From positions 1-36,336 of IMG/VR virus record IMGVR_UViG_3300010354_000250: 36,336 nt of DNA; one strand, given 5' to 3'. This DNA is from a virus. Both the position numbers and the translations under genes were made by a program. Positions 6,028 through 27,781 of this stretch are shown in pieces; the stretch's first letter is position 1, and the number at the start of each line of letters is the position of its first letter. The notes under the pieces were generated by a model, which searched no databases, had not been told where the DNA came from, and saw only the letters and a list, made by a program, of their open reading frames with translations.

Positions 6028-6037
6028 TTTATTCTCC

Positions 6038-6809: not shown

Positions 6810-6815
6810 TTAAAT

Positions 6816-7209: not shown

Positions 7210-7229
7210 AATTCGTAATGTTTTTTCTT

Positions 7230-10933: not shown

Positions 10934-11775
10934 TCAAGAACCTCCTTTAAGAATTCTTCCATTGGAGATTTCTTAAAGATTTCAAGACCTTTTTCTGTCT
11001 GTGCATCAAGTTCTTCTGGTTTCTTGAGAAGTTTATATGCAGTATCTACAAAACGATTATAAGTTGAAGTGAATACTGCATCTTCCATATAATCAGGGAA
11101 GTCAGTATCAGGATTTCTTTCAGCAAGAACAGGTACTTTATTTTGAATAAGATGAGATACTCTTACCATCTCAAAGATTTTATTATCATTGTTATGCAGA
11201 TTAATCACCAACTTTGCTCTCTTGATATAATCATCTCGTTCATCACCATAGGTGCTTTGAACGTGAACAAAATTCAGTTTGGGATTGTTTGCAAACTGTT
11301 CCATAATATGAACCCGTCTTGGTGATGGGGAACCATAAAATAAGATATCAATGTCTCTATTCTCTGGTCGGTTTCTTTCAAAGTATGTGATTTCTGGAAC
11401 GTAACCAATCTTGAAGTGCTTGATGTTTTCTACACCTGCTTTGCGAAGAACATCAGCATTTCTCATTGAGTAGTCCCACACTTCAAGACCACGATACTTG
11501 CGGCACCAACGCATACACTCTGGTTCTTCTCTCATTTGTTCCAGAGAGTAGATGATAGTATCCTTTGGAATATCGTGTCTGACTACATCTACAGGGCAGT
11601 GATGCATTCCAAATACAATATTCTTTCGGTCTGGTGCAAAGTCATTTGTACTGTTCGTTACATCATAACCCATTCGTTGCAGAGTAAAGAATACTGCTGC
11701 TTCAATTTCGTGAAAGACTTGTGCGTGAACATAAAATCCATTATCTGGAACAATTCTTACAAGATTAAACTTCAT
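10930..11775 (-). CDS. Glycosyltransferase (GT4/GT-B-like)
   Basis: This 281-aa protein fits a compact GT-B glycosyltransferase. The N-terminal domain carries NIVFGMHHCPVDVV and DTIIYSLEQM. The C-terminal domain has DIDILFYGSPSPRRVHIMEQ, a Rossmann-type start, followed by YIKRAKLVINLHNNDNKIFE and RVSHLIQNKVPVLAE, where a GT4-like donor-binding acidic residue is expected (FEMVR). Proteins of this layout occur in phage and cyanobacterial glycan clusters. Its stop overlaps the original start of the GT17-GT4 gene, and its start overlaps the preceding gene (ATGA), so it is in the middle of one operon. Confidence 0.7.
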   Translation of the reverse strand: MKFNLVRIVPDNGFYVHAQVFHEIEAAVFFTLQRMGYDVTNSTNDFAPDRKNIVFGMHHCPVDVVRHDIPKDTIIYSLEQMREEPECMRWCRKYRGLEVWDYSMRNADVLRKAGVENIKHFKIGYVPEITYFERNRPENRDIDILFYGSPSPRRVHIMEQFANNPKLNFVHVQSTYGDERDDYIKRAKLVINLHNNDNKIFEMVRVSHLIQNKVPVLAERNPDTDFPDYMEDAVFTSTYNRFVDTAYKLLKKPEELDAQTEKGLEIFKKSPMEEFLKEVLE

Positions 11776-13193
11776 CTAATAAACTCCTCAAAATTTTTAT
11801 TAATTTCATTAATAAGATTTATATCTCTACTAACTACACCCAATCCATTACAGTGTTTAAAGTTTGTTTTTGGTAGTTGAATTTCTTTAAAGAAATCTTT
11901 AACTCCAAATCCTTCGACCATTGTATCGTGCATTAGAATTATACCATCTTCTTTGAGAAATGGTGACCATTTTTCAAAATCATTTTTAACTGCTTCATAT
12001 GTATGCAGTCCATCAATGTGAAGAATGTCAATTGGTTTTGTCCAGGTTTTTACAACATCATCAAAGAAACCTTTGATAAAGGTAATATTATTCAGTTCAA
12101 GTTCTTTCTGTTTCTCTAAAACATAATCATAGGTGTTTCTAATTCCTGCGTGTTCATCACCTTCAAAACTATCAATTCCGTAAATGTGACCGACTTCTGG
12201 AAGGGCAAAGCAGAACGTTGAATAACCATAATCAACACCTAGGTCAACGACTGTTTCTGGTTGTTTGCGACGAATTATCCAATCGGCAAAGTTTCTATGG
12301 TCTCTCCAATTGAAATTGCCCATCGAACCAATTTCAGTGAGAGTATGTATTTTACTATATCGTCTCTTTTCTTCATCACTCTTCATACTTTCATCATACA
12401 TTTCTCGTGGATAATAGATGAAGTATCTTTCAAGACCTTGATTATCATACTGATGATGACGACGATAATGGAAACAATGTTGCTTTGGAATACCAGTTGC
12501 CATCCAAAGTTCAAAACAATAACGATAGTTTTGCAGTTCTCTCATCATTGCTTCCACATCCATATACTCTTCAATCTTGAGAGGATGTTTCAGTTTGCGA
12601 ATATAATCATTTCGTGCCCACCAGAAGTTTCCAGCATAGTGCTGAACCACAAAGTCAAGTTTAATATCGTGTCGTTCTACCCAATCAACGCCACAGCAAT
12701 CATAACCTTCATTCAGTTTTGCAATACAATCTTCCCATTTTTCAAGATTGTAGTACTGCATATAGTGTCTCCAATCTTTAATTGCACCAGGAATATGAGT
12801 TGAATAAGAACTCATACCTTTGTTATGGAAGTAAAAAACGTATCCGTCATCCTCTTGACAATGCTCGTAAATCTTTGCAAGAGTTTGACCTTCGTAAAGA
12901 TTTGGTTGCTCCCCAACATTTCTCATATCAATGATATTCACAAATGGAAAACGGTCTTTGATATAACCAGTCACCATTTGGTCATATGAATGCCCAGTCT
13001 TAGAATTATAAAGTCCAAGAGGCAAGGTAATACACATATTAATGGTTGCCTTATCGGCAAGACCAGATGATTTTAGAAGACCCATCTGTTCATCCACCCA
13101 CCAAATCCACATATTATTAGTATCTGGAATATAGAGATGATAAAAGACCGTGATGGATTTTTTGATTTTCTTTTCGTTTTTATAGTTCAACAT
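11772..13193 (-). CDS. Glycosyltransferase-methyltransferase fusion
   Basis: This 473-aa protein has two parts. Residues 1 to about 290 resemble a glycan-cluster transferase: VFYHLYIPDTNNMWIWWVDE, then YVFYFHNKGMSSYS and DWRHYMQYYNLEKWEDCIAK, then VQHYAGNFWWARNDYIRKL, a putative GT-A-like domain. Residues about 310-473 are a class I SAM methyltransferase of the Methyltransf_24 type: VVDLGVDYGYSTFCFA (motif I), YGIDSFEGDEH, and ILHIDGLHTYEAVKNDFEKW. The likely job is to transfer a sugar and methylate it or a neighbouring group. Methylated sugars are common caps in surface glycans. The first domain is the less certain call. Confidence 0.7.
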   Translation of the reverse strand: MLNYKNEKKIKKSITVFYHLYIPDTNNMWIWWVDEQMGLLKSSGLADKATINMCITLPLGLYNSKTGHSYDQMVTGYIKDRFPFVNIIDMRNVGEQPNLYEGQTLAKIYEHCQEDDGYVFYFHNKGMSSYSTHIPGAIKDWRHYMQYYNLEKWEDCIAKLNEGYDCCGVDWVERHDIKLDFVVQHYAGNFWWARNDYIRKLKHPLKIEEYMDVEAMMRELQNYRYCFELWMATGIPKQHCFHYRRHHQYDNQGLERYFIYYPREMYDESMKSDEEKRRYSKIHTLTEIGSMGNFNWRDHRNFADWIIRRKQPETVVDLGVDYGYSTFCFALPEVGHIYGIDSFEGDEHAGIRNTYDYVLEKQKELELNNITFIKGFFDDVVKTWTKPIDILHIDGLHTYEAVKNDFEKWSPFLKEDGIILMHDTMVEGFGVKDFFKEIQLPKTNFKHCNGLGVVSRDINLINEINKNFEEFIR

Positions 13194-13882
13194 ACAACAT
13201 TACTCTTCATATGACCAACAATAATTTGAGAATCAACATAAACTTTATGACCCTGCTCTGCTACCCTTTCGCAGAAGTATAAATCTTCACCTAATGGAAG
13301 TTCATAAGTTACACCATCAACCTCTTGAATGACTTTACCTAGACCAAACCAAGGTCTTTTGAGTGATTCGAATACACCAGATTTCACACACATAAAACCA
13401 AGACCAACTCCATAAACTTCAATTGGTTCACCAAGTTGCTGAAGAAGTTGAATCTCTTCTCTCTTTACTGGTTTAAAATCACCCTTTGTGCGATGAATCA
13501 TTGCATCAGCACCTTGTGCTTCAAAGTACACAGCAGAAATTACACTCTTATCACTAGAATAAAATCTTAAAAACTGTTCTGGATTCCAAAGAATATCACT
13601 ATCAATCATAAACAGTTTGTCGTAAGTGTATTGTCCTTTTCCTGGTGCAGAATTAAAGACTTCTAAATTACGACTACCTGTAATAGTTGCTTCTCTTGCA
13701 TTTGTAATAATAGAAGCATATTCACTTTGAAAAATCCAGGAGATATTATTTGCCTGAAGTGTGTGAATTGTTGCCATAAGACACTTCACATAATCAGCAC
13801 ACATTGAATGTCCTGGAGTTGTGATGACTACATTGAAGTGTGGTAGTGTTGCTTGTTGAGAAGAATTAGAATAGTTTAACAT
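13187..13882 (-). CDS. GT-A-fold glycosyltransferase, paralog A
   Basis: This 231-aa protein has a GT-A metal motif D94-S-D in YDKLFMIDSDILW. Upstream is SEYASIITNAREATITGS, and near the C-terminus GEDLYFCERVAEQGHKVYVD is followed by VGHMKS, where the last His often completes the metal site. It shares residue positions and motifs with the next gene (D-S-D at 94-96, an S..NAR segment, GED/SED, VGH), so the two are tandem paralogs. Its stop overlaps the next gene by 7 nt. Donor and acceptor cannot be predicted. Confidence 0.75.
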   Translation of the reverse strand: MLNYSNSSQQATLPHFNVVITTPGHSMCADYVKCLMATIHTLQANNISWIFQSEYASIITNAREATITGSRNLEVFNSAPGKGQYTYDKLFMIDSDILWNPEQFLRFYSSDKSVISAVYFEAQGADAMIHRTKGDFKPVKREEIQLLQQLGEPIEVYGVGLGFMCVKSGVFESLKRPWFGLGKVIQEVDGVTYELPLGEDLYFCERVAEQGHKVYVDSQIIVGHMKSNVVC

Positions 13883-13886
13883 AGTT

Positions 13887-14609
13887 TTACAGAATTACCA
13901 TTTTTTGATGACCAACACGAACTTTTGGATGAACCCAAATATCAAAACCATATTTTTTAAAGTCCTGACACATTGAAATATCTTCAGAGCAGACATCTTC
14001 AAGAATTGTTCCGTCTGGTTTCTTGAGTTGAATTACTCTAGGAACAAACCAAGGATAAGGAATTTTCTCATAAACACCTTTCTTAATCAGCATCCAACCA
14101 AAGCCACAATAATCTACTTTAAAAGGTTCTGCTCTTCGTGCCATATCCTCAACAGTCTCATAACGATTTGTACCTTTTTGATACAGTTCCTGGTCGTCCA
14201 TTCGTTCAACGACCGTTGTTTGATTAGAGAGAGCACCACCATTTGATTGGCAATACCAACCAGACGCAATGTCCTTATTCATTTGCAGAAGTTCAATCAG
14301 GTCTTCTGTTTTGAAGATAATATCACTATCAATCCACATAATGTAATCATAAGGAACCTGTCCCCTGAATGGAGTCAGCATTGTTCCTGCATAATTATCT
14401 GCCTGCAAACAATCAGTTCGTGCGTGATTCACCATTGAACTGTATTGTTGAGAGATATAAAAATTAATTCCTTGCTGATTAAGGTCAAACAAAAGTCTGA
14501 CGAATTGCGTCATAAAGGTTCCAGAATACATTAATCCTGGAAGACAAAAAGCAATTGTTTTACCTTTAAGAGTTGTGCTTGAAGATTGATTTGTATAATT
14601 TAGAGGCAT
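13887..14609 (-). CDS. GT-A-fold glycosyltransferase, paralog B
   Basis: This 240-aa protein has the metal motif D94-S-D in YIMWIDSDIIFK, then WYCQSNGGALSN, YCGFGWMLIKKGVYE, CSEDISMCQDFKKYGFDIWV and a C-terminal VGHQKM. The opening MPLNYTNQSSST parallels MLNYSNSSQQAT of the neighbouring paralog. It is the first gene of the sugar cluster, 45 bases after the last adhesin gene. That gap holds a possible TAGAAT box but no late promoter motif. Its position right after the adhesins suggests the cluster may be co-transcribed with them, so virion glycosylation is a reasonable hypothesis. Confidence 0.75.
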   Translation of the reverse strand: MPLNYTNQSSSTTLKGKTIAFCLPGLMYSGTFMTQFVRLLFDLNQQGINFYISQQYSSMVNHARTDCLQADNYAGTMLTPFRGQVPYDYIMWIDSDIIFKTEDLIELLQMNKDIASGWYCQSNGGALSNQTTVVERMDDQELYQKGTNRYETVEDMARRAEPFKVDYCGFGWMLIKKGVYEKIPYPWFVPRVIQLKKPDGTILEDVCSEDISMCQDFKKYGFDIWVHPKVRVGHQKMVIL

Positions 14610-14654
14610 ACAAGAAAGTCATTTTAAAATCATTCTAGCATATCTAGGCAAGTT

Positions 14655-17600
14655 TTACCACCAGGTAATTCTTACATATCCATCTCCACCATTTCCACCT
14701 AATCCAAAACGATTTCCTTCTGCTGCATATCCACCTCCACCACCTCCACCACCTCTGGTGCCGTTGCCTCCGTTTCCTGCTGCGGATTGTGAGATTGCTG
14801 ATGCTGAATATAATGCTATAGGATTACCACCACCAAGAACATAATTGTTATTCCCAAAAATAATGGAATAGATAGTAGTAGGAAGAGTAGATAAAGTCCT
14901 TACAAACCAAACAATCCCATCCGTTGAAGTTCTCATCTCACCACCACTAGTACCAGCAAAATAAGTATTATTTGAATAAAAAAGAGAACTAATAATAGGA
15001 GTAGCATTTCCAAAAGTTCTTAAAGACCAAGTAATTGTATCCGTCGAAGACCTTAAATCACCACTAAATCCACCAGAAGCAAGATATAAATTATTTCCAT
15101 AGGTAAGAGATGAACTATTATTTGATGTTCCAGAAGTTCTTAAAGTCCAGGTGATTGCGTCTGTTGAAGTAATAATTACTCCACTAAAACCACCAGCAAC
15201 GTAAAAAGTTGAATATGTAAGAGAAGGTAAAGAAACAGTTGTCCCAGAAGTTCTTAAAGTCCAACAAATTGCATCTGTTGAAGTACTTACTGTTCCAACA
15301 CTCGTAAATGATGCAACATAAAGATTATTCGCATAGATGAAATCTCCAAAAGTAGCATTAGTACCAGAAGTTCTGAAAGTCCAGGTGATTGCGTCTGTTG
15401 AGGTGCTTAAAGTTCCAGCACCACCAATAAAGAATTCATTATTCAAATAAGAAAGAGGGTCAAGATTAAACAACTGACCAGCAGTTCTTAAAGTCCAGGT
15501 GATTGCATTTGTTGAAGTACTTAAAACCCCATTAGCACCAGCAGCAACATAAGTATTATTTCCAAAAGCAAGAGCAAGAATATTAGTAGAACCAAAACCA
15601 GAAGTTCTTAAATACCAACTCGTAAGTCCTTCACTTAAAGCACCTCCACCACCTCCACCACTTCCAATGTTTCCAGTATAAGAACCATCAATACCACCAC
15701 TTCCATTACCACCAGTATCACTTCCACCACTTGCAGTATAAGTATTTCCATACCAGTACATTGTAGAACTTCCACCAGTACTGGTATTATATGCTCCACT
15801 TCCACCACCTGTTGGTTGGAATCTGGAGTTTTGTGTTGCATTTGAGGAACCATAAGTAGAACGACCAGTAGCACCAACAAGACCAGAAGTAACATAGAGA
15901 GCATTAGAAAGTAATCCTGCGTTTCCAGCCCCATTACCACCAGAAGTTGTTGTATCACTTGCACCACTACCAGCAGAAGAAGTTAAAGTATAAGTCGCAG
16001 TACCTGTTGGAGTATTTCCAGTCCAGGTGACCGTTGTAGAACCACCAGCAGCACCAGCACCAGAAGTAACACCACCAGCAACGAAGGTAGTTCCGTAGGT
16101 GAGAGCAATAATGCTTTGTGCTTGGAACAATGAGGTTCTTAAAGTCCAGGTGATTGCATCTGTTGAAGTGTTTAAGACTCCACCAGTACTACCAACAATA
16201 TAAAGATTATTTGCATAAGTAAGGGCATTAATAGTAACAGTAAAACCAGAAGTTCTTAAAGTCCAAGCAATTCCATCCGTTGAAGTATTTAATTTTCCAC
16301 TAGTACCACCAGCAACATAAGTATTGTTTGCATAAGTGAGAGCAACAATACCATTAGAACCAAAACCAGAAGTTCTTAAAGTCCAGGTGATTGCATCTGT
16401 TGAAGTGTTAAAGGCACCAATAGTAGAACCACCAGCAAGATAAGTATTGTTTGCAAAGATGAGTGCATTAATTTGATTAGCACCAAAACCAGCAGTTCTG
16501 GAAGTCCAAGTGATTGCGTCTGTTGAGGTGCTTAATTTTCCACTAGTACCACCAGCAACATAAGTATTGTTTCCGTAAGTGAGTGCTGTAGTATTATCAC
16601 CAATAAAATTACCTGCAGTTCTTAAAGTCCAGGTGATTGCATCTGTTGAAGTGTTTAAGACTCCACCAGTACTACCAGCAATATAAGTATTATTTCCATA
16701 AGTAAGGGAAAAAATGCTAAAACCACCAAGACCAGCAGTTCTTAAAATCCAAGTATTTGTATCTGTTGAGGTATTTAAAACTCCATTAGCACCACCAGCA
16801 ACATAAACAGTTCCATAAGTAAGAGCACTAACTGAATTAGTACCAAACCCAGAACCACCAGGAACAGTAAACCAATTAATACCATCAGTACTGGTACTCA
16901 TACCACGATTGTTTCCACCACGACCACCAGCACCAACGGTTACAGTCATCGTTGTAGCATTTCCAAGTTCTCCACGACGAATTAACCAGGCATTATAAGC
17001 ACCAGAACCTCCACCACCACCAGAACCTAAAGTACCTGTATATCTTCCTGATGCTCCTCCACCACCAGCACCGATTGCTTCAATATAAAACTGTGTTGCA
17101 CTTGGAGGAATAAAGAAGGTTCCCGATGCTGTGAATTCTTGTGAACCTTTGTATGTTGCTCTGTCTAATGTTGTTGTGGTTGTGGAGTTTATTGGTTTCC
17201 AACTTTGTCTTCTGGGTTGGGAGATTGCTAGAGTACCACCAGAACCACCAGCAATATAAGTATTGTTTGCATAAGTAAGAGCACTAATATTATTAGTACT
17301 AAATCCAGAAGTTCTAGAAGACCAAGTAATTGTATCTGTTGATGTTCTTAAGGTTCCACTAACACCACCAGCAACATAAGTATTATTTGCATAGGTAAGA
17401 GCATTAATATTATTAGTAGTATTAGAACTTCTTACAGTCCAAGTGATTGTGTCTGTTGAAGTAATTAAAGTTCCTGCACCACCACCAGCAACATAAGTAT
17501 TATTTCCAAAGGTAAGAGAAATAATTGCATTAGCAGTCCCAGAAGTTCTAAAAGTCCAGACAATTGCATCTGTTGAGGTGTTTAATGTTCCAGTTTGACC

Positions 17601-18185
17601 ACCAGCAACATAAGTATTATTTGAGTAAACAAAGGCAGTAATATTATTACTTCCAAATCCAGAAGTTCTTTGAGACCAAGCAATTGCATCTGTTGAGGTG
17701 ATTAATCTTCCAGCATCAGCACCTGCAATATAAAAAGTTGAGTAAGTAAGAGTATTAATAGTATTTGTTATACCAGAAGTTCTTAAAGTCCAAGTGATTG
17801 TATCTGTAGATGAAATTAAAACTCCATTACTACTGCAACCAACATAAGTATTATTTCCATAAGTAAGTGAGTAAAAAGGATTAGTAGTAAAACCAGCAGT
17901 TCTTAAAGTCCAGGTGATTGTATCTGTTGAGGTGTTTAAGACTCCATTAGAACCACCTGCAACATAAAAAGTTGTATAAATGAGTGAATAAATTTGTTGA
18001 CTGACAGCAAACCCAGCAGTTCTCAACACCCAATAAGAAAGACCAGGATAAACACTCAAAAATCCACCAGCATTTCCAGTTGTACTTGGACTTGTAAACT
18101 GGTCGGCATATTCTTTCGTTGAAGCATCAGTTGCTGATGTCGTACTTGTAATACCAGTAATTCTTCCAGAGAGTATTTGAGACAT
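14655..18185 (-). CDS. Tail-fibre adhesin 1: three seven-repeat propellers on a Gly-rich scaffold
   Basis: This 1176-aa protein starts with a phage-fibre type segment (GITSTTSATDASTKEYADQF). Three arrays of an Asp-box-like repeat (STDAITWTLRTSG ... LTYANNTYVAGG) lie at about 52-322, 438-709 and 857-1129. I count exactly seven units in each, the number expected for a closed seven-bladed beta-propeller. Between them is a Gly-rich domain (FIPPSATQFYIEAIGAGGGG, then GSGGGGGSGAYNAW). The C-terminus has GTRGGGGGGGGYAAEG and ends DGYVRITWW. Gly-rich tips are known in T-even gp38 adhesins, so a receptor-binding role is inferred. A TAATAAATA late promoter lies upstream. Confidence 0.8.
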   Translation of the reverse strand: MSQILSGRITGITSTTSATDASTKEYADQFTSPSTTGNAGGFLSVYPGLSYWVLRTAGFAVSQQIYSLIYTTFYVAGGSNGVLNTSTDTITWTLRTAGFTTNPFYSLTYGNNTYVGCSSNGVLISSTDTITWTLRTSGITNTINTLTYSTFYIAGADAGRLITSTDAIAWSQRTSGFGSNNITAFVYSNNTYVAGGQTGTLNTSTDAIVWTFRTSGTANAIISLTFGNNTYVAGGGAGTLITSTDTITWTVRSSNTTNNINALTYANNTYVAGGVSGTLRTSTDTITWSSRTSGFSTNNISALTYANNTYIAGGSGGTLAISQPRRQSWKPINSTTTTTLDRATYKGSQEFTASGTFFIPPSATQFYIEAIGAGGGGASGRYTGTLGSGGGGGSGAYNAWLIRRGELGNATTMTVTVGAGGRGGNNRGMSTSTDGINWFTVPGGSGFGTNSVSALTYGTVYVAGGANGVLNTSTDTNTWILRTAGLGGFSIFSLTYGNNTYIAGSTGGVLNTSTDAITWTLRTAGNFIGDNTTALTYGNNTYVAGGTSGKLSTSTDAITWTSRTAGFGANQINALIFANNTYLAGGSTIGAFNTSTDAITWTLRTSGFGSNGIVALTYANNTYVAGGTSGKLNTSTDGIAWTLRTSGFTVTINALTYANNLYIVGSTGGVLNTSTDAITWTLRTSLFQAQSIIALTYGTTFVAGGVTSGAGAAGGSTTVTWTGNTPTGTATYTLTSSAGSGASDTTTSGGNGAGNAGLLSNALYVTSGLVGATGRSTYGSSNATQNSRFQPTGGGSGAYNTSTGGSSTMYWYGNTYTASGGSDTGGNGSGGIDGSYTGNIGSGGGGGGALSEGLTSWYLRTSGFGSTNILALAFGNNTYVAAGANGVLSTSTNAITWTLRTAGQLFNLDPLSYLNNEFFIGGAGTLSTSTDAITWTFRTSGTNATFGDFIYANNLYVASFTSVGTVSTSTDAICWTLRTSGTTVSLPSLTYSTFYVAGGFSGVIITSTDAITWTLRTSGTSNNSSSLTYGNNLYLASGGFSGDLRSSTDTITWSLRTFGNATPIISSLFYSNNTYFAGTSGGEMRTSTDGIVWFVRTLSTLPTTIYSIIFGNNNYVLGGGNPIALYSASAISQSAAGNGGNGTRGGGGGGGGYAAEGNRFGLGGNGGDGYVRITWW
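14799..15617 (-). repeat. Seven-repeat propeller array, adhesin 1, array 3
   Basis: Seven units of 37-40 residues, each opening W-x-x-R-T and ending in a STDxIxW-type Asp-box strand (one unit has STNAIT, two have STDG/STDT forms). It is followed directly by the terminal Gly-rich segment. Confidence 0.85.
16059..16874 (-). repeat. Seven-repeat propeller array, adhesin 1, array 2
   Basis: Seven units. The array is entered by STSTDGINW, so the last unit's missing Asp-box strand may be supplied by the first, as in a velcro-closed propeller. Confidence 0.85.
17220..18032 (-). repeat. Seven-repeat propeller array, adhesin 1, array 1
   Basis: Seven units of about 39 residues, the N-terminal array of the protein, directly after the fibre-type N-terminus. 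The nucleotide copies diverge more than in adhesin 2. Confidence 0.85.
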
Positions 18186-18212
18186 TTTATGTTCTTATTC
18201 CTTCCTTTTTAA

Positions 18213-18220
18213 TATTTATT
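18213..18220 (-). promoter_or_regulatory. T4-type late promoter AATAAATA
   Basis: AATAAATA overlaps the TAA stop of adhesin 2 and is followed by AAGGAAGG, 28 nt before the ATG of adhesin 1. Confidence 0.6.
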
Positions 18221-20888
18221 ACCACCAGGTAATCTTCACGTAACCATCACCACCATTACCACCACGACCAAAAGTAGAACCAATAGAAGCACCACCACCT
18301 CCACCACCTCCACGAACACCAGAACCTCCTGCACCTGCAGTTGCTGTTGCTGTTGAAGTGATTAAGGTTCCACCACTAGTACCACCAATATAAGTATTGT
18401 TTGCGTAGGTAAGAGCATTAATATTAGTTGCAACATTAGAAGTTCTTAAAGTCCAGGTGATTGCATCTGTTGATGTGTTTAAGATTCCATTAGCACCACC
18501 AGCAACATAAGTATTGTTTCCAAAAGTAAGTCCATAAACAGAAACAGTTGTCCCAGAAGTTCTTAAAGTCCAAGCAATTGCATCTGTTGATGTGTTTAAG
18601 ATTCCAGCATTACCACCAGCAAGATAAGTATTGTTTGCATAAGTAAGAGCACGAATAGCATTAACACCAAAACCAGCAGTTCTTAAAGTCCAGGTGATTG
18701 TGTCTGTTGAGGTATTTAAGATTCCAGCATTACCACCAGCAAGATAAGTATTGTTTGCATAAGTAAGTGTCCAAATAGTATTAGTAGAACCAGAAGTTCT
18801 TAAAGTCCAGGTGATTGCATCTGTTGAGGTGGTTAATTCTGGAATTCCAGCAAAACTTCCACCAGCAACATAAGTATTGTTTCCAAAAGTAAGTCCATAA
18901 ACAGAAACAGTTGTCCCAGAAGTTCTTAAAGTCCAGGTGATTGCATCTGTTGAAGTGTTTAAGACTCCACCACTACCACTAGCAACATAAACAGTTCCAT
19001 AAGTAAGTGCATAAATGTAATTACCACCCAAACCAGAAGTTCTTAAAGTCCAGGCAATTGCATCTGTTGAAGTGTTTAATACTCCATTAACACCACCAGC
19101 AACATAAGTATTGTTTGCATAAGTAAGAGCATTAATTGAATTACCACTAAAACCAGAAGTTCTTAAAGTCCAGGTTGCACTTGGTGGTGGATTATCAACA
19201 ACCGCACCACCTCCACCACCACCTAATCCATAAGGAAGTGCGGTGATTGCTGTTGCACTATTGCCATTACTACCATCACCATAACCTGCAAGAGAGAAAA
19301 TAGTATTTCCATAAGATACGATAGACCCACCATTACCACCAGAAACTCCAATACTTGTTGTAAAACCACCACTACCACCACCCGTTGGTTGGAATTGGTT
19401 GGTTTGTGCGGTTGCTGTAAATCCACCATCAATTGGAGTTTGTGGTGCTCCAGAAAGTCCAGCAGTGGTATAAAAAGAACTTGACTGCGTAACTAATTGT
19501 GCTGCTCCTGCTATTCCACCAGCACCTCCACCATTTGCAGTAAGTGTATAAGTTCCTCCAGGTCCAGTCCAAGTTATTGTTGTTCCTGCTCCTGCTGAAC
19601 CAGTACCTGCATCTGTTGTTGCACCAGTACCACCAACACCAGGATTGACAGTGATATTAGAAGAAACAATGTTCTTTGGAATATACCAAGACGTATAAGA
19701 ACCTGATGAACCTCCTGCTCCTGATGCTTGTGCGTATGAGGTATTTAAGATTCCACTAGCACCACCAGCAACATAAGTATTGTTTGCATAAGTTAAAGCA
19801 TAAATGATATTAGTTCCAAAACCAGAAGTTCTTAAAGTCCAGGTGATTGCATCTGTTGAGGTATTTAATACTCCACTATCTCCGCCAGCAACATAAGTAT
19901 TGTTTCCATAAGTAAGAGGAAGAATAGTACCACCAGAACCAAAACCAGAAGTTCTTAAAGTCCAGGTGATTGCATCTGTTGAGGTGTTTAATGTTCCAGT
20001 TTGACCACCAGCAACGTAAAGATTGTTTCCATAAGTAAGAGCAACAATTTGATTAATACCAAAACCAGAAGTTCTTAAAGTCCAAGCAATTGCATCTGTT
20101 GAGGTGTTTAAGATTCCACTAACACGACCAGCAACATAAGTATTGTTTGCATAAGTAAGGGCAGAAATACCATTACCACCAAAACCAGCAGTTCTCAATT
20201 CCCAAGTGATTGCGTCTGTTGAAGTGTTTATATCTCCAGTATTAGTACCAGCAACATAAGTATTGTTTCCATAAGTAAGAGTATTAATTTGAGTAGTACC
20301 CAATCCAAAAGTTCTTAAAGTCCAAGCAATTGCATCTGTTGAAGTGATTAAGGTTCCACTAGTACCACCACCAATATAAGTATTGTTTGCATAAGTAAGA
20401 GCAAGAATAGTACCACCAGAACCAAAACCAGAAGTTCTTAAAGTCCAGACAATTGCATTTGTTGAGGTGTTTAAGATTCCACTTTGACTACCTGCAACAT
20501 AAAAAGTTGAATAAGTAAAGGAATAAATGATGCTAGAACTAAAACGAGCAGTTCTTAAAGTCCAAGTCACGGCATTCAATGCATTACTTTGTCCTGCACT
20601 TCCTCCACCACCAGCACCAGTTGCTTCAATGTATAAAAGATTTGCCTGACTTGGAACCGTAAATGTTTGCTCTCCTGTGGTTGTAAATTCTTGGTAATTA
20701 GAAACATAATCCCAAGTTCTTGTTGTTCCATCTGTTGTGGTAAGAAATTTACCTGATGCACCAACCTGTGAAGGTAGTGGAGAAACATTAGAATCCACAT
20801 AAGACTTATACGGAACATCAGTGAAATCCGTTGCTGTTGTAAGTCCTGAAATACTATTTTCTGAAAATTTAATTGGATCTACTGGCAT
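18219..20888 (-). CDS. Tail-fibre adhesin 2: two seven-repeat propellers
   Basis: This 889-aa paralog of the flanking adhesins has an N-terminal fibre segment (SENSISGLTTATDFTDVPYK) and a linker FTVPSQANLLYIEATGAGGGG. Array 1 is at about 109-384 (seven units). A long Gly-rich domain of about 190 residues follows (PGVGGTGATTDAG to GLGGGGGGAVVDN). Array 2 is at about 573-845 (seven units), then GVRGGGGGGGAS and DGYVKITWW. Both arrays interrupt otherwise continuous Gly-rich sequence. It has lost, or never gained, the middle array present in its neighbours. It starts 12 nt after adhesin 3 with AAGGAGG, so the two are co-translated from one transcript. Confidence 0.8.
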   Translation of the reverse strand: MPVDPIKFSENSISGLTTATDFTDVPYKSYVDSNVSPLPSQVGASGKFLTTTDGTTRTWDYVSNYQEFTTTGEQTFTVPSQANLLYIEATGAGGGGSAGQSNALNAVTWTLRTARFSSSIIYSFTYSTFYVAGSQSGILNTSTNAIVWTLRTSGFGSGGTILALTYANNTYIGGGTSGTLITSTDAIAWTLRTFGLGTTQINTLTYGNNTYVAGTNTGDINTSTDAITWELRTAGFGGNGISALTYANNTYVAGRVSGILNTSTDAIAWTLRTSGFGINQIVALTYGNNLYVAGGQTGTLNTSTDAITWTLRTSGFGSGGTILPLTYGNNTYVAGGDSGVLNTSTDAITWTLRTSGFGTNIIYALTYANNTYVAGGASGILNTSYAQASGAGGSSGSYTSWYIPKNIVSSNITVNPGVGGTGATTDAGTGSAGAGTTITWTGPGGTYTLTANGGGAGGIAGAAQLVTQSSSFYTTAGLSGAPQTPIDGGFTATAQTNQFQPTGGGSGGFTTSIGVSGGNGGSIVSYGNTIFSLAGYGDGSNGNSATAITALPYGLGGGGGGAVVDNPPPSATWTLRTSGFSGNSINALTYANNTYVAGGVNGVLNTSTDAIAWTLRTSGLGGNYIYALTYGTVYVASGSGGVLNTSTDAITWTLRTSGTTVSVYGLTFGNNTYVAGGSFAGIPELTTSTDAITWTLRTSGSTNTIWTLTYANNTYLAGGNAGILNTSTDTITWTLRTAGFGVNAIRALTYANNTYLAGGNAGILNTSTDAIAWTLRTSGTTVSVYGLTFGNNTYVAGGANGILNTSTDAITWTLRTSNVATNINALTYANNTYIGGTSGGTLITSTATATAGAGGSGVRGGGGGGGASIGSTFGRGGNGGDGYVKITWW
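18354..19172 (-). repeat. Seven-repeat propeller array, adhesin 2, array 2
   Basis: Seven units. Units 3 and 6 share the block TTVSVYGLTFGNNTYVAGG, and units 4 and 5 share NNTYLAGGNAGILNTSTD, suggesting recent internal duplication or conversion. Confidence 0.9.
19737..20564 (-). repeat. Seven-repeat propeller array, adhesin 2, array 1
   Basis: Seven units. Units 2 and 6 share GFGSGGTIL. The array starts after GQSNALNAVT and ends at LNTS before YAQASGAGGSSGSY, within the Gly-rich domain. Confidence 0.9.
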
Positions 20889-20900
20889 TGTTAGTCCTCC

Positions 20901-23900
20901 TTATGCCCAACTGATACGAACATAACCATCACCACCATCACCACCTGCACCTGCAGTGTCTGTGGTTTCTTCATAACCACCTCCACCACCTCCACCACCT
21001 TTGACTCCAGAACCTCCTGAACCTGCAGATATTGTTGGGGAGGTTGTGAGAGTACCATTAACACCACCAGCAACATACAGGTTATTACCAAAAGTAAGGG
21101 CATTAATAGCATTAGTACTAAAACCAGCAGTTCTTAAAATCCAAGTGATTGCGTCTGTTGAAATAGATACATTTCCACTACCACCACCAGCAACATAAGT
21201 ACTGTTTGCATAAGTTAATGCATTAATTAAACTACCAAAACCATATCCGGTAGTTCTTAATGTCCAGGTGATTGTGTCAGTTGAGGTGTTTAATATTCCT
21301 ACACTAGCACCACTAACACCACCAGCAACATAAGTATTGTTGGCATAGGTTAGTGAGTAAATAGTACTAAAACCAATAGTAGTTCTTAAAGACCAAGTAA
21401 TTGCATCTGTTGAGGTGTTTAATATTCCACCAGAACCACCGACAATATAAAGATTGTTTGCATAGGTGAGTGATAAAGCATTAGAAACAAAACCAGCAGT
21501 TCTTAAAGTCCAGGCAATTGCATCTGTTGAAGTGATTAATCTTCCACTTTGACCACCAGCAACATAAAAAGTTGAATAAGTAAGAGCATAAATCGAAAGA
21601 GCACCTACACCAGAAGTTCTCAAAACCCAAGTAATTAAATCTGTTGAAGTGGTTATTGGAACAGCACCAACTGTAACATAAAGATTGTCTCCATATACCA
21701 CCCCATTAATAGTACTACCAGTACCAGAAGTTCCTATAATCCAACTAATTGCATCTGTTGAGGTATTTAAAATTCCATTAGCACCACCAGCAAGATAAGT
21801 ATTGTTTCCATAAGTAAGAGCATTAATTACAGCAGTACTAAAACCAGAAGTTCTTGAAGTCCAATAAAGAGCATTATCACTCACAGCACCACCACCACTT
21901 CCACCATTACCATAAGAGAGTCCAGAAATTGAACTAGCAATTCTTCCACTAACCTCAATATTAGTAAAAGTGTTGGTTGAACCATAATAATTAATGGTTC
22001 CACCAGAACCACCAAGAGATGCAGAACGAGAACTTGCACTACTATAACCACCAGAACCACCAGCAGTTGATTGAAAAGAACTTGATGCAGTAGCAGGTGA
22101 AAATCCTGTTGTTGGTACTACTCTTCCAGCAACACCAGAAAGACCAGCAGATGCTTGAAGATAATTGCTATCTGTAGTTGGTATTGTACCACCAGAACCA
22201 CCTAATAAAAATCCAGTGTTTGACCCTGCATCACCACCATTTACTGAAAGTGTATAAGTTCTACTGCTTGGTCCAGTCCAGGTTATTGTAGTATTTGAAC
22301 CATTTTCTGCTGTTACGTTTGATGTGAGTAAAGTTGCACCAGCACACCCAGCAACATAAGCATTGTTTGTATTAATAAGTGCGTAAATAAGTTGCGTAGT
22401 ATTAGAAGTTCTTAAAGTCCAGGTGATTGCGTCTGTTGAGGTGTTTAAAATTCCACCAACACCACCAGCAACATAAGTATTGTTTGCATAAGTAAGAGCA
22501 ATAATACTACTAGTACCAAAACCAGAAGTTCTTAAAGTCCAAATGATTGCGTCTGTTGAGGTAGTTAAGACTCCAGTACTACCATTTCCACCAGCAACAT
22601 AAAGATTATTTGCATAAGTAATGATTCTAGGAAGATTACCAGAAGTTCTTAAAACCCAAGAAATTGCGTCTGTTGAAGTACTTAACCCCCCGTCTCCACC
22701 AGCAACATAAAGATTATTTGCATAAGTAAGGGCACGAATAGCATTAACACCAAAACCAGAAGTTCTTAAAGTCCAAGTAATTGCATCTGTTGAGGTGTTT
22801 AAGATTCCATTATCACCACCAGCAACATAAGCATTTGTTTGTCCCAAAGCATAAGTAAGTTCACCAATACTATTAGAACCAAAACCAGAAGTTCTTAAAG
22901 TCCAGGTGATTGCATCTGTTGAAGTGTTTAAGACTCCACCAGTACTACCAGCAACATAAAAATTTGAGTAGATAAGAGCATTAATACCATTAACACCAAA
23001 CCCAGCAGTTCTTAAAGTCCAGGTGATTGCGTTTGTTGAGGTGTTTAATATTCCCAAACCACTACCACCACCAACATAAGTATTATTTCCAAAGATAAGT
23101 GAAGTAATAGGTTGATTAGTAAAAGAAGCAGTTCTTAAAATCCAACGAACAGGAACTAATTGACCACCAAATCCACCTCTTGAAACATTCACAGTAATTC
23201 CAGAAGATATAATTTGGTCTTTTGAAATACTCCAGGATGCTGATGCTCCAGAACCTCCAGAACCTCCTGTCATTCCTGGTGGTATGTGGGGTGATACTGA
23301 TAGAGTTCCACTAACACCACCAGCAACATAAGTATTGTTTGCATAAGTAAGGGAATAAATACCATTAGTAGCAAAACCAGCAGTCCTTAAAGTCCAAGCA
23401 ATAGCATCTGTTGATGTGTTTAAGATTCCATTAGCACCACCTGCAAAATAAGTATTGTTTGCATAAGTAAGAGCAAGAATACCAGCCACACCAAAACCAG
23501 AAGTTCTTAAAGTCCAGGTGATTGTGTCTGTTGAGGTGTTTAAGATTCCACTTTGATCACCTGCAACATAAATATTGTTTGCATAAGTAAGTGCATTAAT
23601 TTGATTAGCACCAAAACCAGCAGAAGTTCTTAAAGTCCAGACAATTGCATCTGTTGAAGATTGTAATGTTCCCCCAGCACCAATAACATAAAGATTATTT
23701 CCAAAAGTAAGTGCATTAATACTACTTAAACTAATTGCAGAAGTTCTTAATTCCCAAGTAATTGTATCTGTTGAGGTGTTTAAGACTCCACCACTACCAC
23801 TAGCAACATAAACAGTTCCATAAGTAAGAGCAAGAATATTGTATATAACAGCAAAACCAGAAGTTCTTAAAGTCCAAGCAATTGCATCTGTTGAGGTGTT

Positions 23901-24431
23901 TAAGACTCCACCACTACCACCAGCAAGATAAGTATTATTTGCATAAATAAGACCAGAAATAGTAGTACCACCAAAACCAGAAGTTCTTAAAGTCCAGGTG
24001 ATTGCATCTGTTGAAGTTCCAATTCTACCACCATTGTCACTAGAAACATAAAAAGTTGAATAAATAAAAGAACGAATAATATTATTAGAAAAACAACCAG
24101 TTCTTAAAGTCCAAATACTTGCAGTTTCATAAGAACTAGTATCAGTATTTCCACTTGCTCCACCACCACCAGCACCAGTTGCCTCAATCAATAATTCTTT
24201 TGCTTGTGGTGGTACTGTATAAGTATAAGAACCAAAAGTAGTGTATTCCTGCGTTGCTCCTATTGGTTCCCAAGTCGCATTGATTCCGTCACTATACAGA
24301 AACTCATTCTCGTTTCCTGCAAGTGTGGGAACTCCTGCACGACTATCCACATAAGTTTTATTTACAGCATCATCTGGATTATTAACTTGAGTAATACCAG
24401 TAATACTATTTGGTCCTATATTTACAGGCAT
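20901..24431 (-). CDS. Tail-fibre adhesin 3: three seven-repeat propellers
   Basis: This 1176-aa protein begins MPVNIGPNSITGITQVNNPD and DAVNKTYVDS, a widespread tail-fibre N-terminal pattern, then TYTVPPQAKELLIEATGAGGGG. Arrays of the Asp-box-like repeat are at about 107-380, 430-704 and 857-1131, seven units each. The C-terminus has KGGGGGGGGYEE and ends DGYVRISWA. It is the first of the three adhesins to be transcribed, from a CTAAATA element at 24456-24450. Array 2 shares whole blocks with adhesin 2, for example GFGVNAIRALTYANN, indicating exchange between paralogs. Receptor binding is inferred from position and architecture, not shown. Confidence 0.8.
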   Translation of the reverse strand: MPVNIGPNSITGITQVNNPDDAVNKTYVDSRAGVPTLAGNENEFLYSDGINATWEPIGATQEYTTFGSYTYTVPPQAKELLIEATGAGGGGASGNTDTSSYETASIWTLRTGCFSNNIIRSFIYSTFYVSSDNGGRIGTSTDAITWTLRTSGFGGTTISGLIYANNTYLAGGSGGVLNTSTDAIAWTLRTSGFAVIYNILALTYGTVYVASGSGGVLNTSTDTITWELRTSAISLSSINALTFGNNLYVIGAGGTLQSSTDAIVWTLRTSAGFGANQINALTYANNIYVAGDQSGILNTSTDTITWTLRTSGFGVAGILALTYANNTYFAGGANGILNTSTDAIAWTLRTAGFATNGIYSLTYANNTYVAGGVSGTLSVSPHIPPGMTGGSGGSGASASWSISKDQIISSGITVNVSRGGFGGQLVPVRWILRTASFTNQPITSLIFGNNTYVGGGSGLGILNTSTNAITWTLRTAGFGVNGINALIYSNFYVAGSTGGVLNTSTDAITWTLRTSGFGSNSIGELTYALGQTNAYVAGGDNGILNTSTDAITWTLRTSGFGVNAIRALTYANNLYVAGGDGGLSTSTDAISWVLRTSGNLPRIITYANNLYVAGGNGSTGVLTTSTDAIIWTLRTSGFGTSSIIALTYANNTYVAGGVGGILNTSTDAITWTLRTSNTTQLIYALINTNNAYVAGCAGATLLTSNVTAENGSNTTITWTGPSSRTYTLSVNGGDAGSNTGFLLGGSGGTIPTTDSNYLQASAGLSGVAGRVVPTTGFSPATASSSFQSTAGGSGGYSSASSRSASLGGSGGTINYYGSTNTFTNIEVSGRIASSISGLSYGNGGSGGGAVSDNALYWTSRTSGFSTAVINALTYGNNTYLAGGANGILNTSTDAISWIIGTSGTGSTINGVVYGDNLYVTVGAVPITTSTDLITWVLRTSGVGALSIYALTYSTFYVAGGQSGRLITSTDAIAWTLRTAGFVSNALSLTYANNLYIVGGSGGILNTSTDAITWSLRTTIGFSTIYSLTYANNTYVAGGVSGASVGILNTSTDTITWTLRTTGYGFGSLINALTYANSTYVAGGGSGNVSISTDAITWILRTAGFSTNAINALTFGNNLYVAGGVNGTLTTSPTISAGSGGSGVKGGGGGGGGYEETTDTAGAGGDGGDGYVRISWA
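21039..21863 (-). repeat. Seven-repeat propeller array, adhesin 3, array 3
   Basis: Seven units. Unit 2 is the most diverged (WIIGTSGTG, loss of the LRT motif), yet the count is kept at seven. Confidence 0.85.
22320..23144 (-). repeat. Seven-repeat propeller array, adhesin 3, array 2
   Basis: Seven units. Units 3 and 5 show length changes in the variable loop (TYALGQTNAY; a shortened NLPRIITYANN), with the core retained. Confidence 0.85.
23292..24113 (-). repeat. Seven-repeat propeller array, adhesin 3, array 1
   Basis: Seven units, inserted directly after the GAGGGGASGN segment and followed by MTGGSGGSGAS. Confidence 0.85.
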
Positions 24432-24449: not shown

Positions 24450-24456
24450 TATTTAG
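24450..24456 (-). promoter_or_regulatory. Late-type promoter element CTAAATA
   Basis: CTAAATA includes the TAA stop of the 1097-aa fibre gene and lies 19 nt before the ATG of adhesin 3. Confidence 0.5.
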
Positions 24457-27400
24457 GAAATTACAACCCAACTTGCATTCGCACTAATTGTGACAGTCGC
24501 ATTAATTGTAAGTGGTCCAACTGAAAGAGCATTCTTTCCAGAAGGAATCGTATAAGCATTGTTTATAGTATTATCATTCAAGTAAAATACAGCATCTGTT
24601 CCACCACCAGTTGGACTCAATGAAGTAATTGTTGTTGCAGTACCTGATGCTGTTGCAGTAATTCCTGCACCGACAATATTTATTGATGTAATTGCACTTC
24701 CAACAATTGTTCCTTCATCACGAATTTCCATTCCAGCAGGAGCAGAAACTGTAATTGTAGAAATAGAACCAGATGCAGTCGCAGTAACAGTTGCACCAAC
24801 AAAATTAAGTTGCGAAACACTATTTGCAGTACCAACAATTGTACCTTCGTCTCTTATTGTAAGTCCAGTAATTGCAGATGCAGGTGCTGCAGGAACCCAA
24901 GAAGGTGCGCTTGTACCACCATTTGCCTGTAAAATATAACCAGAAATACCATTTGCTAAGAAAGTGGTTGTATCTGCTGCAGTTTGATAAGGTATAGAAC
25001 CACCTGCACCACCTTTGAGATTTGTTGCTATTCCTGCATTAGTCGCATAAGTAGCAATATCTGCCGATGTAGCATAAGTGGCAATTCCTGCCGATGTTGA
25101 ATAAGTAGAACTTGAAGCATTTCCAGAAAAACTTGATGCTGTTACAACACCAGTAAAGGATGCTTGAGAACCAAATAAAGATGACTGGAATGTTGAGACT
25201 CCTACAAAAGTAGAAAAACCAGAAACGTTTAGTTGAGTTGTATCGAGTGTTCCATAAACGGTTGCGCCAACACCAGAAGTTTCAAACTTTTTGGAGTTGT
25301 CATAATAAAGTTCTACTGAACTATTTTCAGTGAAGATTGCAAGGTTTTCTGTTGAACCGCCATTTTTAAATGTATGTGATGCAGATCTATAGGTGGTACT
25401 AGATGCATCAATAAAAAGTCCTCCAGTTCCAACTTCCGAAATAAAACTATTTGATCCATTATGAAAAATTCTTAAATCATTTCCATCACCAAGATACAGA
25501 CTTGCATTATCAGCAAGATTTACATTTCCTTTGAATGTGGAAACACCAGAAACGTTTAATTGCTTGGAGAATAAAGTCTCTCCAGTGACTGTGGTAATTC
25601 CAGCAAAAGTTGAAAGACCGGTTACATTCAGTTGTTGTGCGGTTAGATTCGTAGCACTAGTAATTCCAAGAGTGCTAATACCAGAAATAGATAAAGCAGT
25701 TCCTACAAGAGAATCACTAGTTACAGAAGAACCAGTAAATTCTCCATAAATGGAACTAAAAATTCTATTTGCTGTTAAAATTCCAGTTATATAAGTATCA
25801 CCAACGACATAAAGTGCCGATGTAGCATTTAATGTCTTAATACCAACATTTGAATTAAATGTTGAAACTCCAGAAACATTTAATTGTGTAACAGATGCAA
25901 TTCCACCAATGACTGATGTTGCTATACCAGCATTATTAGAATAAGTAGCAATTCCTGCTGATGTTGCGTAAGTAGCACTTGAAGCATTACCATTAATATT
26001 AATATTATAAGTTCCACTTAATCTAGCACTATTAATAGTTCCAGTAGTAATATTTGCAGCATCAGTTAAATTATAAGCAGTTGTAGCAAATGATGCTGTT
26101 GATGCTGTTCCTGTTAAGTTTCCTACAAAACCACCAGTTGAAGTTGTAATACCAGAAATAGTAACATTTCTTGCAAACTGTAAATCAAGATCCGAAACTG
26201 TAATAGTTGGATTTAAATTGGTATTACTTCTTATATAATTTGTAACTATCTTTCCTTGAAAAGATACATCACCACTAGTATCAAATACATAAAAAGCATT
26301 GGTTCCATTTGCCGATTGATAATAACCAGTGCTTGGTCGGAAAGAAGAACCAGTAACAATACCACTTGAATTTAGACTTGCTGCAGTAATATTTGCAACA
26401 GTAATATTTGGAGTTCCTATGAGACCTTGTGCATTTGTAGCAACTCCAGCGGTAACGGCATAGGTTGCGATTCCTGCTACTGAAGCATATTCAGAGAACG
26501 TAGAGACACCAGCAACGTTAGCGTAACCAGAGAACGTAGAGACGCCAGCAACGTTAGCATAACCAGAGAACGTAGAGACTCCAGCGGTAACGGCATAGGT
26601 TGCTATACCAGCATTATTAGAATAAGTGCTTATACCTGCTGATGTAGCATAAGTACTTAATCCAGCATTGGTTGCGTAAGTTGCAATGCCAGCAACGTTA
26701 GCATAACCAGAGAACGTAGAGACTCCAGCGGTAACGGCATAGGTTGCGATTCCTGCTACTGAAGCATAAGTAGCACTAGAAGCATTGCCAGAAAAACTTG
26801 ATGCCGTTACAACACCAGAAGCGTTAATGTTTCTAACGACTACTAAATCTCTTTCAGTAAATTGAACAGAACCGGCAGCGAGTCTTGTCCCCACTGGGAA
26901 CTGTGTCGAACCAATACCAATAGCATAATTACTTAACCAAGCGTCGGTTCCAAGTCCAGCAAAAGTACCCGCCTTAAACCACATAATTTTCTTATATGTG
27001 GATGGAGTAGTTTCAATTCCAGCAATGAATAATTGAGTTAATGGGGTTCCTTCAGTGGATGCAATTGCAATACCACCGTGATTTGCTGTATTATCTGTAG
27101 AAGAATCATTACCAAAAGCATCTGTTCTAAATCCAAGAACAAGATCTGGGTCAGTAACTCTTAATTCCTGAACATTAATAAATGCTGTTGTACCACCAAT
27201 TGTAATATTTCCAGTTACGTTTAGGTTGCGATTAACCTGAAGATCTCTTGTAACTATTGCGTCCTGAGGAATAACTAAATTATTTGGAAGACTTAATGTT
27301 GGTGTTGAACCTTCACCAGTCCCACCAGTAACCGTGATCTGATTTAATGTTCCAGATACTGTTTGAACATAGTCACCAGTCGTATCAGAACCAAGAGCAA

Positions 27401-27746
27401 CTGAATTTGGTTGGATAGTTGCTGCTAGAGATACATTTCCAGTTCCATCAAAACTAATTGGCGAAGCAACAATATCACCAGTAATTTCAAAAGTTCTTGC
27501 GGTCTGAAGTGCTGTTGCTATACCTGCTGATGTAGCATAAGTAGCACTTGAAACATTACCAGAAAAATTTGATGCTGTAACAACACCAGTAAAGTAACCA
27601 TCACCAACAACGTAAAGTTTTGATGTTGGATTTGTGGTTCCTATACCAACATAGGGAGTTGCAGTTGTTGCAATTCCAATATTTCTATTTTTATCATCTA
27701 CATAGATGAACGATGAAAATTGAGAAATCTCCCTACTATTAGACAT
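24453..27746 (-). CDS. Large tail-fibre-like structural protein, 1097 aa
   Basis: The protein begins MSNSREISQFSSFIYVDDKN and GIGTTNPTSKLYVVGDGYFTG, a fibre motif that recurs in the next gene. It is dominated by two repeat types: SATYATSAGIATYA-like units (many copies at about 55-85, 315-450, 570-600 and 890-930) and QLNVSGVSTF units. These are typical of trimeric beta-structured cyanophage fibres. The middle contains a GDGNDLRIFHNGSNSFI block. The C-terminus (SGKNALSVGPLTINATVTIS) is unlike that of the adhesins. A late promoter AATAAATA is at 27775-27768. A structural role in tail fibres is likely; the exact location is unknown. Confidence 0.7.
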   Translation of the reverse strand: MSNSREISQFSSFIYVDDKNRNIGIATTATPYVGIGTTNPTSKLYVVGDGYFTGVVTASNFSGNVSSATYATSAGIATALQTARTFEITGDIVASPISFDGTGNVSLAATIQPNSVALGSDTTGDYVQTVSGTLNQITVTGGTGEGSTPTLSLPNNLVIPQDAIVTRDLQVNRNLNVTGNITIGGTTAFINVQELRVTDPDLVLGFRTDAFGNDSSTDNTANHGGIAIASTEGTPLTQLFIAGIETTPSTYKKIMWFKAGTFAGLGTDAWLSNYAIGIGSTQFPVGTRLAAGSVQFTERDLVVVRNINASGVVTASSFSGNASSATYASVAGIATYAVTAGVSTFSGYANVAGIATYATNAGLSTYATSAGISTYSNNAGIATYAVTAGVSTFSGYANVAGVSTFSGYANVAGVSTFSEYASVAGIATYAVTAGVATNAQGLIGTPNITVANITAASLNSSGIVTGSSFRPSTGYYQSANGTNAFYVFDTSGDVSFQGKIVTNYIRSNTNLNPTITVSDLDLQFARNVTISGITTSTGGFVGNLTGTASTASFATTAYNLTDAANITTGTINSARLSGTYNININGNASSATYATSAGIATYSNNAGIATSVIGGIASVTQLNVSGVSTFNSNVGIKTLNATSALYVVGDTYITGILTANRIFSSIYGEFTGSSVTSDSLVGTALSISGISTLGITSATNLTAQQLNVTGLSTFAGITTVTGETLFSKQLNVSGVSTFKGNVNLADNASLYLGDGNDLRIFHNGSNSFISEVGTGGLFIDASSTTYRSASHTFKNGGSTENLAIFTENSSVELYYDNSKKFETSGVGATVYGTLDTTQLNVSGFSTFVGVSTFQSSLFGSQASFTGVVTASSFSGNASSSTYSTSAGIATYATSADIATYATNAGIATNLKGGAGGSIPYQTAADTTTFLANGISGYILQANGGTSAPSWVPAAPASAITGLTIRDEGTIVGTANSVSQLNFVGATVTATASGSISTITVSAPAGMEIRDEGTIVGSAITSINIVGAGITATASGTATTITSLSPTGGGTDAVFYLNDNTINNAYTIPSGKNALSVGPLTINATVTISANASWVVIS

Positions 27747-27767
27747 TTTATTTCTGCTTTATAAAGG

Positions 27768-27775
27768 TATTTATT
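27768..27775 (-). promoter_or_regulatory. T4-type late promoter AATAAATA
   Basis: AATAAATA lies a few bases after the stop of the 1181-aa gene and 22 nt before the ATG at 27746. Confidence 0.6.
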
Positions 27776-27781
27776 TGAAGT

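Follow-up and report, generated by a model that had tools for sequence, protein, structure and literature searches.

Seven-unit repeat arrays, apparently nested in related proteins, in glycine-rich putative adhesins of a cyanophage-like virus

Three adhesin genes with eight arrays of seven units

The window analyzed in the current work is a virus record of 36,336 bases (IMG/VR record IMGVR_UViG_3300010354_000250, in its full length), and the subject is a set of three adjoining minus-strand genes which encode putative adhesins, here called A, B and C, together with the predicted beta-propellers that these proteins carry as arrays of repeated units. Adhesin A (14655-18185; 1176 amino acids, aa) contains three such arrays, located at approximately aa 52-323, 438-711 and 857-1127, and a glycine-rich scaffold which extends from approximately aa 353 to the end of the protein. 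Its array A1 (17217-18032) is N-terminal to the glycine-rich domain, and A2 (16053-16874) and A3 (14805-15617) are located inside it, the end coordinates of all three being approximate. Adhesin B (18219-20888; 889 aa) contains two arrays, B1 (19737-20564) and B2 (18348-19172), and adhesin C (20901-24431; 1176 aa) contains three, C1 (23289-24113), C2 (22320-23144) and C3 (21036-21863), in both cases within a single Gly_rich_2 domain.

A strict search for the start of the unit (W..[RG][TS]) retrieved 55 unit starts, being 20, 14 and 21 in A, B and C, respectively. The 56th unit, corresponding to the degenerate start of A2 (W438, WFTVP), was found by a profile-supported parser, which assigned 7+7+7, 7+7 and 7+7+7 units (21, 14 and 21) to the three proteins. 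The motif search and the parser together confirm what a first-pass annotation of this DNA had counted, namely 56 units in eight arrays with seven units each. Tandem Repeats Finder, when applied to the arrays, returned periods of 117-129 bases and multiples thereof.

The repeat unit and its host domain

Judged against the strand order of Asp-box blades and the loop faces of propellers, the repeat would be composed, in the order d-a-b-c, of strand d (WTLRT), strand a (INALTY), strand b (NTYVAGG) and strand c (GILNTS), followed by the STDAITW turn, such that the first strand d would complete the last blade and thereby close the ring. The STDAITW turn had been interpreted as an Asp-box with Ile in place of Gly. 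Its spacing does not fit exactly, as the phage motif is a shortened SxDxxxW with three residues between D and W, one less than the classical four, and the classical S-x-D-x-G-x-T-[WF] Asp-box has 0 occurrences in the three window proteins. Variability was measured in 374 units of exactly 40 residues, and the four highest peaks were positions 12 (in the loop before strand a), 14 (strand a), 28 (the b-c turn) and 31 (strand c). The proposal that the variable loops lie between WxLRT and NNTYVAGG is borne out in part, most of the loop after WxLRT being fairly conserved in these units.

The eight propellers had furthermore been described as simply following each other in a row, a description that has to be revised, given that seven of the eight arrays interrupt a glycine-rich domain. 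When the arrays are removed and the remaining parts spliced, the scaffolds of all three adhesins match Pfam family PF21722 (Gly_rich_2; 226 positions) over almost its full length and above its curated cut-off of 24.3 bits: A with 36.3 bits (E 7.7e-9, positions 2-219), B with 35.4 bits (E 1.5e-8, positions 1-220) and C with 31.4 bits (E 2.5e-7, positions 2-225). The same domain is detected in A alone if the proteins are left unspliced. According to the match positions, only A1 precedes the domain, and in five relatives of B of approximately 600 aa (L012, L014, L015, L019 and L022), which are without B2, the scaffold is uninterrupted at the corresponding site.

Relationship to Ycf48-type propellers

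Array B1 of the window matches a Paenibacillus protein (L144) with an E value of 1e-21, and this protein in turn matches the PSII_BNR (PF14870)/Ycf48 profile (E 2.7e-10) and solved Ycf48 proteins (E 7.6e-10). A profile search of the window proteins themselves gave no match to PF14870, so that the link to Ycf48 runs only through this Paenibacillus protein, and their match to DUF6242 is below the cut-off of that family. The window repeats are accordingly filed as probable relatives, not members, of the Asp-box/Ycf48-like family. Ycf48 is seven-bladed. This homology and the constant number of seven together make a propeller fold of the arrays likely. A bacterial protein from Paenibacillus albidus (L143) was read by eye as containing two arrays of seven related units, and arrays of seven are consequently not confined to phages.

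A bracket pattern in the relatives

Relatives were collected by scans of viral contigs and from regions fetched by place (loci are designated by L numbers). From 327 open reading frames (ORFs) with at least five profile hits, removal of contained copies left 98, and 91 non-redundant proteins remained after seven ORFs with at least 92% identity to another had been dropped. A complete run of units was present in 85 of these 91 proteins. Of 153 runs in total, 146 were complete and entered the count, the other seven being discarded as incomplete.

When units are simply counted from one break to the next, the numbers in the relatives are irregular, ranging from 3 to 11. Two types of break can be distinguished: a unit of approximately 33 residues that ends after strand b, and a unit of approximately 52-65 residues that has two c strands. 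Taking the former as the opening and the latter as the closing of a bracket, many openings carry a motif similar to NNEYLIGG before a short linker, many closing linkers resemble STQxILSSYGNGALL, and the blade after a closing is longer than usual (median 45 versus 40 residues). The bracket pattern was first spotted by eye, and a parser was written afterwards. Classification of the breaks by unit length alone was discarded, as it misread units with long loops. Classification by the length of the tail from strand b to the next W performed better, yet it misplaced some closings (in L127, L028 and L030). This tail is trimodal, with 68 cases at 5-9, 1338 at 11-23 and 76 at 25-47 residues, and the cut-offs of the parser (10 and 24) were chosen after the histogram had been viewed, with no value of seven being built in.

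With the automatic parser, the number of units is a multiple of seven in 128 of the 146 complete runs, where approximately one in seven would be expected under free counts; no p-value is claimed, because the runs are related to one another. Wholly automatic parsing into sevens was obtained for 116 of the 146 runs, corresponding to 157 propellers, and 17 of these runs are nested to a depth of up to 4, eight of them reaching depth 3 or 4. The parser registered an opening in 24 complete runs, being the 17 just mentioned, five that were read by eye (L127, L021, L036, L028 and L030), L019, and L029, in which a flat array was given a false opening. At the level of sequence, insertions within inserted domains are thus found in 17 automatically parsed and five by-eye runs. 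The first-pass annotation had regarded arrays of 5, 6, 8 or 9 units in related phages as an argument against closed rings. Linear counts as irregular as 3-11 do occur, but mostly dissolve into sevens when they are read as nested insertions.

Individual proteins illustrate this reading. The linear counts of 10, 9, 3 and 6 in L017 become four propellers of seven, three deep, and those of 11, 9, 4, 9, 4 and 5 in L012 become six propellers of seven, four deep. L015 and L017, which share 57% and 55% identity with adhesin C in the N-terminal region, carry three and four nested propellers, respectively, at the position of the first array. In L024, L025, L028 and L030, the propeller that follows a B1-like N-terminal region holds a second one inside. 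By eye, 42 units in L021 were read as six propellers, one of which has insertions in four of its blades, and 49 units in L036 as seven propellers.

The deepest nest is found in L127, a protein of 4,380 residues with 91 units and 12 openings, which reads as 13 propellers of seven units each, 13 deep. The automatic and the hand reading of this protein differ at one of 90 junctions: eleven closings were recognised, and the twelfth (the unit at 4153), which is marked by a clear linker, had been measured wrongly with the profile and was corrected by hand. The same protein (5112-18251, minus strand; also seen in L122) contains near-identical blades at several nesting levels, for example in the unit starting WVLRTSGFGTTAINAFTYGSLPTDTYVAAG, which suggests recent copying between levels.

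Conservation, exchange and gain follow the bracketed sets

Among balanced strings that have the correct totals, the proportion resolving into sevens throughout is 6/78 (0.077) for two propellers, 506/1,480,050 (3.4e-4) for four, 62,832/4.7e10 (1.3e-6) for six and 3.7e-15 for thirteen. In five pairwise comparisons among L024, L025, L028 and L030 (excluding the close pair L028-L030), the seven inner units are 23-59% identical, the outer units 48-90% and the scaffold 76-91%. L033 and L040 resemble each other along most of the protein, and one inner propeller has a mean blade identity of 91%, as opposed to 42% for the other. The stretch of low identity includes two adjoining outer blade parts, and the remaining stretches are 85-100% identical, except for the first unit (69/43%) and part of another (75%).

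A comparison of L050 with L097, in which propellers were grouped as bracketed, gave identities of 84, 98, 76, 68 and 99%, as opposed to 30-54% for other combinations, and the matching propellers include ones that are split into two or three pieces. One extra propeller is present in L097, within a blade that is uninterrupted in L050, and its blades are 68% identical to those of an L055 propeller at a different site. The propeller shared in this manner is located at aa 1185-2328 in L055 (depth 2) and aa 1484-3247 in L097 (depth 4), and it has apparently moved from one nest site to another. The propellers at inner sites one and three of L055 are 30-36% identical to those of L050 or L097 and thus without a match, as would be expected under exchange. 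As judged from these identities, the units between two brackets are one evolutionary unit.

An alternative is that the propellers stand in tandem without any nesting, the short and long units being scars of past insertions. The totals do not speak against it, since they remain multiples of seven whenever seven units are inserted, and tandem pairs seem to exist: two proteins of L119 and one of L111 read as 7+7 joined by a short linker, and runs of 14 and 21 units without linkers occur in L095 and L110, respectively. As a side observation, all three L110 proteins (2073-4907, 4814-7651 and 7644-11168; 21, 21 and 27 units) are without any linker. Tandem propellers would, however, leave blades without strand c at the openings and spare c strands at the closings; they offer no reason for brackets to enclose exactly seven units, which is what the shares of balanced strings address; and conservation, exchange and gain all track the bracketed sets. 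This alternative is considered unlikely.

Observations that weigh against nested, closed propellers

Several results count against the interpretation as closed propellers that are nested in relatives. All arrays of the window itself have the simple, unnested form, with no nested propeller among them. When seven units were excised in silico and nested proteins compared with unnested relatives, the predicted cut ranked 5th, 4th, 1st and 2nd of 14, the scores of the 14 cuts being within approximately 8% of each other and thus non-discriminating. Little or no contrast between inner and outer units was seen for L028-L030, for L055-L030, for L015 with L033 and L040, or for L037 with L028 and L030. 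As regards the parsing, 30 of the 146 runs were not resolved automatically, and 16 of these were settled only by eye. The latter comprise L127, three rows of L021 (one nest, the flat array behind it and a 908-aa protein), three of L036 (including one flat array and one seven-propeller nest, with one unit added by eye), L028, L030, L010 3720-7280, two L029 proteins, L092 and the above tandem pairs of L119 and L111. Among the other unparsed rows, four are long runs without linkers (L095 and the three L110 proteins), L010 2-931, L038 and L126 are cut or truncated, and the distant, degenerate rows L046, L049 and three of L120 yielded no assignment.

With respect to the fold, the only solved structures matched by the arrays at E < 0.01 are designed symmetric propellers (Tako8, Ika8 and Ika4). 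AlphaFold2 gave unusable models for full-length adhesin B (10 aligned sequences; mean predicted local distance difference test score, pLDDT, 45.7; predicted template modelling score, pTM, 0.32) and for the nested L024 protein (4 sequences; mean pLDDT 39.2, pTM 0.47), and no fold is confirmed for this reason. Foldseek searches with these two low-confidence models retrieved nothing at E <= 0.001, and the weak neighbours are mostly beta-helix proteins and one curli subunit, with no propellers among them. These neighbours would agree with a beta-solenoid or another open repeat fold in place of closed propellers. Such a fold is nevertheless distinctly improbable in our view, as both models are far below usable confidence, an open fold has no reason for a fixed number of seven in so many runs, and the homology leads to Ycf48 propellers. 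The first-pass proposal that a constant seven reflects closed seven-bladed propellers finds partial support in the Ycf48-type homology and in the retention of seven despite interruption by other propellers, the two low-confidence models neither bearing it out nor contradicting it.

Clear deviations from seven also belong to the contrary observations. These are a five-unit array between glycine-rich flanks in an L116 protein (9674-11311, from aa 113), which may be either a real exception or an assembly collapse, and one inner propeller of L019 with six units, in a protein whose ORF ends within the outermost propeller, which is thereby reduced to 5 units. Both could be errors of assembly, and the long proteins are derived from IMG/VR metagenome contigs, so that short reads of near-identical repeats, having been collapsed or misjoined, might in principle have generated the long brackets as a whole. 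Errors of this type would scatter the counts rather than restore seven, though, and the 4,380-residue protein of L127 is identical (4380/4380 residues) in two contigs of different data sets, even if related samples may share a co-assembly; other nested loci are likewise present in two to four contigs each. An assembly artefact is accordingly regarded as very improbable, and nested propellers are retained as the preferred interpretation.

Gene neighbourhood and identity of the virus

The adhesin genes are adjoined by a minus-strand gene (24453-27746) for a tail fibre protein with PHROG tail fibre and baseplate wedge matches, which is followed on the same strand by a second gene (27782-31327) whose product also has a PHROG tail fibre match and carries FG-GAP repeats near its C-terminus. 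These FG-GAP repeats (five stretches, E 5.2e-26) are of a propeller type unlike the adhesin repeats. All PHROG matches of the three window adhesins (6/6) are to entries of unknown function. On the other side, adjoining the adhesins at 7236-14609, sugar-related genes encode a UDP-galactopyranose mutase, a protein with GT17 and GT1 domains, a GT2-like protein and a methyltransferase.

The region 31674-36336, which contains a psbD-like gene and a tail fibre gene, matches 439 phage records by blastn, the records being named after Synechococcus (351), cyanophages (59), Prochlorococcus (20) and marine viruses (9), and the virus is apparently a T4-like cyanophage. No megablast match to the adhesin DNA was obtained among 50,697 phage records, and three phage records matched protein B by tblastn. 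Synechococcus phage S-SRM01 (L044), which was isolated from a reservoir, matches part of the window. Just after its long tail fibre gene it encodes two RCC1-repeat proteins (25733-26767 and 27431-28648; Pfam E 4.7e-64 and 2.1e-77), and it thus shares with the window the presence of propeller-type repeats beside a cyanophage tail fibre gene, the difference being that they belong to the RCC1 family. From its relatives, a fresh-water origin of the window phage may be guessed.

Discussion

We consider it highly probable that A, B and C are receptor-binding tip proteins of a T4-like cyanophage, in which seven-bladed propellers of the Ycf48/Asp-box class are carried by a glycine-rich domain, are nested in each other in relatives, and are exchanged. 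In this interpretation each adhesin would consist of a short N-terminal part and one Gly_rich_2 domain, with propellers (all except A1) in the loops of that domain. The relatives would have additional propellers of this family in the loop between strands b and c of a blade, which would themselves carry insertions: the chain would leave the outer propeller after strand b, complete a seven-bladed inner propeller, and return through a linker which supplies the missing strand c. As nearly every propeller keeps its seven blades, the protein would read as balanced brackets, and the insertion could be repeated whenever a propeller arrives with an acceptor blade of its own, the shared marks at openings and closings suggesting that this blade is inherited with it.

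What the sequences themselves show are the counts, the bracket pattern, the interruption of the glycine-rich domain, and the exchange and gain of whole propellers. Inner propellers are exchanged between related phages, with the outer propellers and the scaffold staying in place, and the likely benefit would be a fast change of the binding surface, the inserted loop probably facing the host. Host recognition with fast exchange of this surface is the most likely role of the adhesins, because tail fibre genes adjoin them, the scaffold is glycine-rich and phages that are similar in other respects differ in an entire inner propeller. A further proposal, for which we see about equal chances of being right or wrong, is a self-propagating recursion, in which a propeller that bears an acceptor would insert into the acceptor blade of another copy and thereby bring a new site, such that nests would grow without fixed limit (13 levels being seen) into branched, tree-like adhesins with the innermost propellers as exchangeable host-range tips. 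The apparent copying between levels in L127 and the propeller that seems to have moved between nest sites in L055 and L097 may be traces of this process.

Ycf48-like or Asp-box (BNR) propellers (PF14870, PSII_BNR; structures 2xbg and 5ojp) have in common with the phage arrays the units of approximately 40 residues, seven per domain, and the Ser-x-Asp ... Trp turn. The phage proteins differ in the motif that is shorter by one residue, in having several propellers per protein, and in the insertion of these propellers into a glycine-rich domain and, in relatives, into each other. For gp38 of the T4-like phage S16, a polyglycine sandwich adhesin characterised by a polyglycine II lattice and an N-terminal helical attachment domain, hypervariable loops between glycine-rich motifs have been proposed to bind the receptor (PMC6851490). 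The window proteins resemble gp38 in being glycine-rich, and are themselves encoded beside tail fibre genes; gp38 differs in carrying short loops where the window proteins carry whole propellers.

Recursive insertion of domains is itself known. PMC13114784 describes it at six levels for the SI3 region of cyanobacterial RNA polymerase RpoC2, in which, as in the phage proteins, domains lie within domains at several levels and there are hosts with multiple insertions. According to this survey, most domain insertions are single-level, and six levels are cited to illustrate complexity. The SI3 fold is different and smaller, and the six levels compare with 13 in the phage protein; a search of the main text of that source for the words propeller and phage gave no hit. 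Propellers nested in propellers were not described among the matches listed in open-licence PubMed Central, as judged from titles and the starts of abstracts, subscription papers and bioRxiv being outside this scope. Ycf48-type propellers, the Gly_rich_2 Pfam family and recursive domain insertion (PMC13114784) are already known, and the part added here would be the nesting of propellers inside propellers, apparently thirteen deep.

If true, nested propellers would represent an extreme way to build and to reshuffle host-binding surfaces. A single chain with thirteen closed rings would also be a test case for protein folding, as no outer ring can close before everything inside it has been made. 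The bracket reading would also provide a readable grammar for large repetitive phage proteins, whose predicted host-binding modules appear to be exchanged as units in natural phages.

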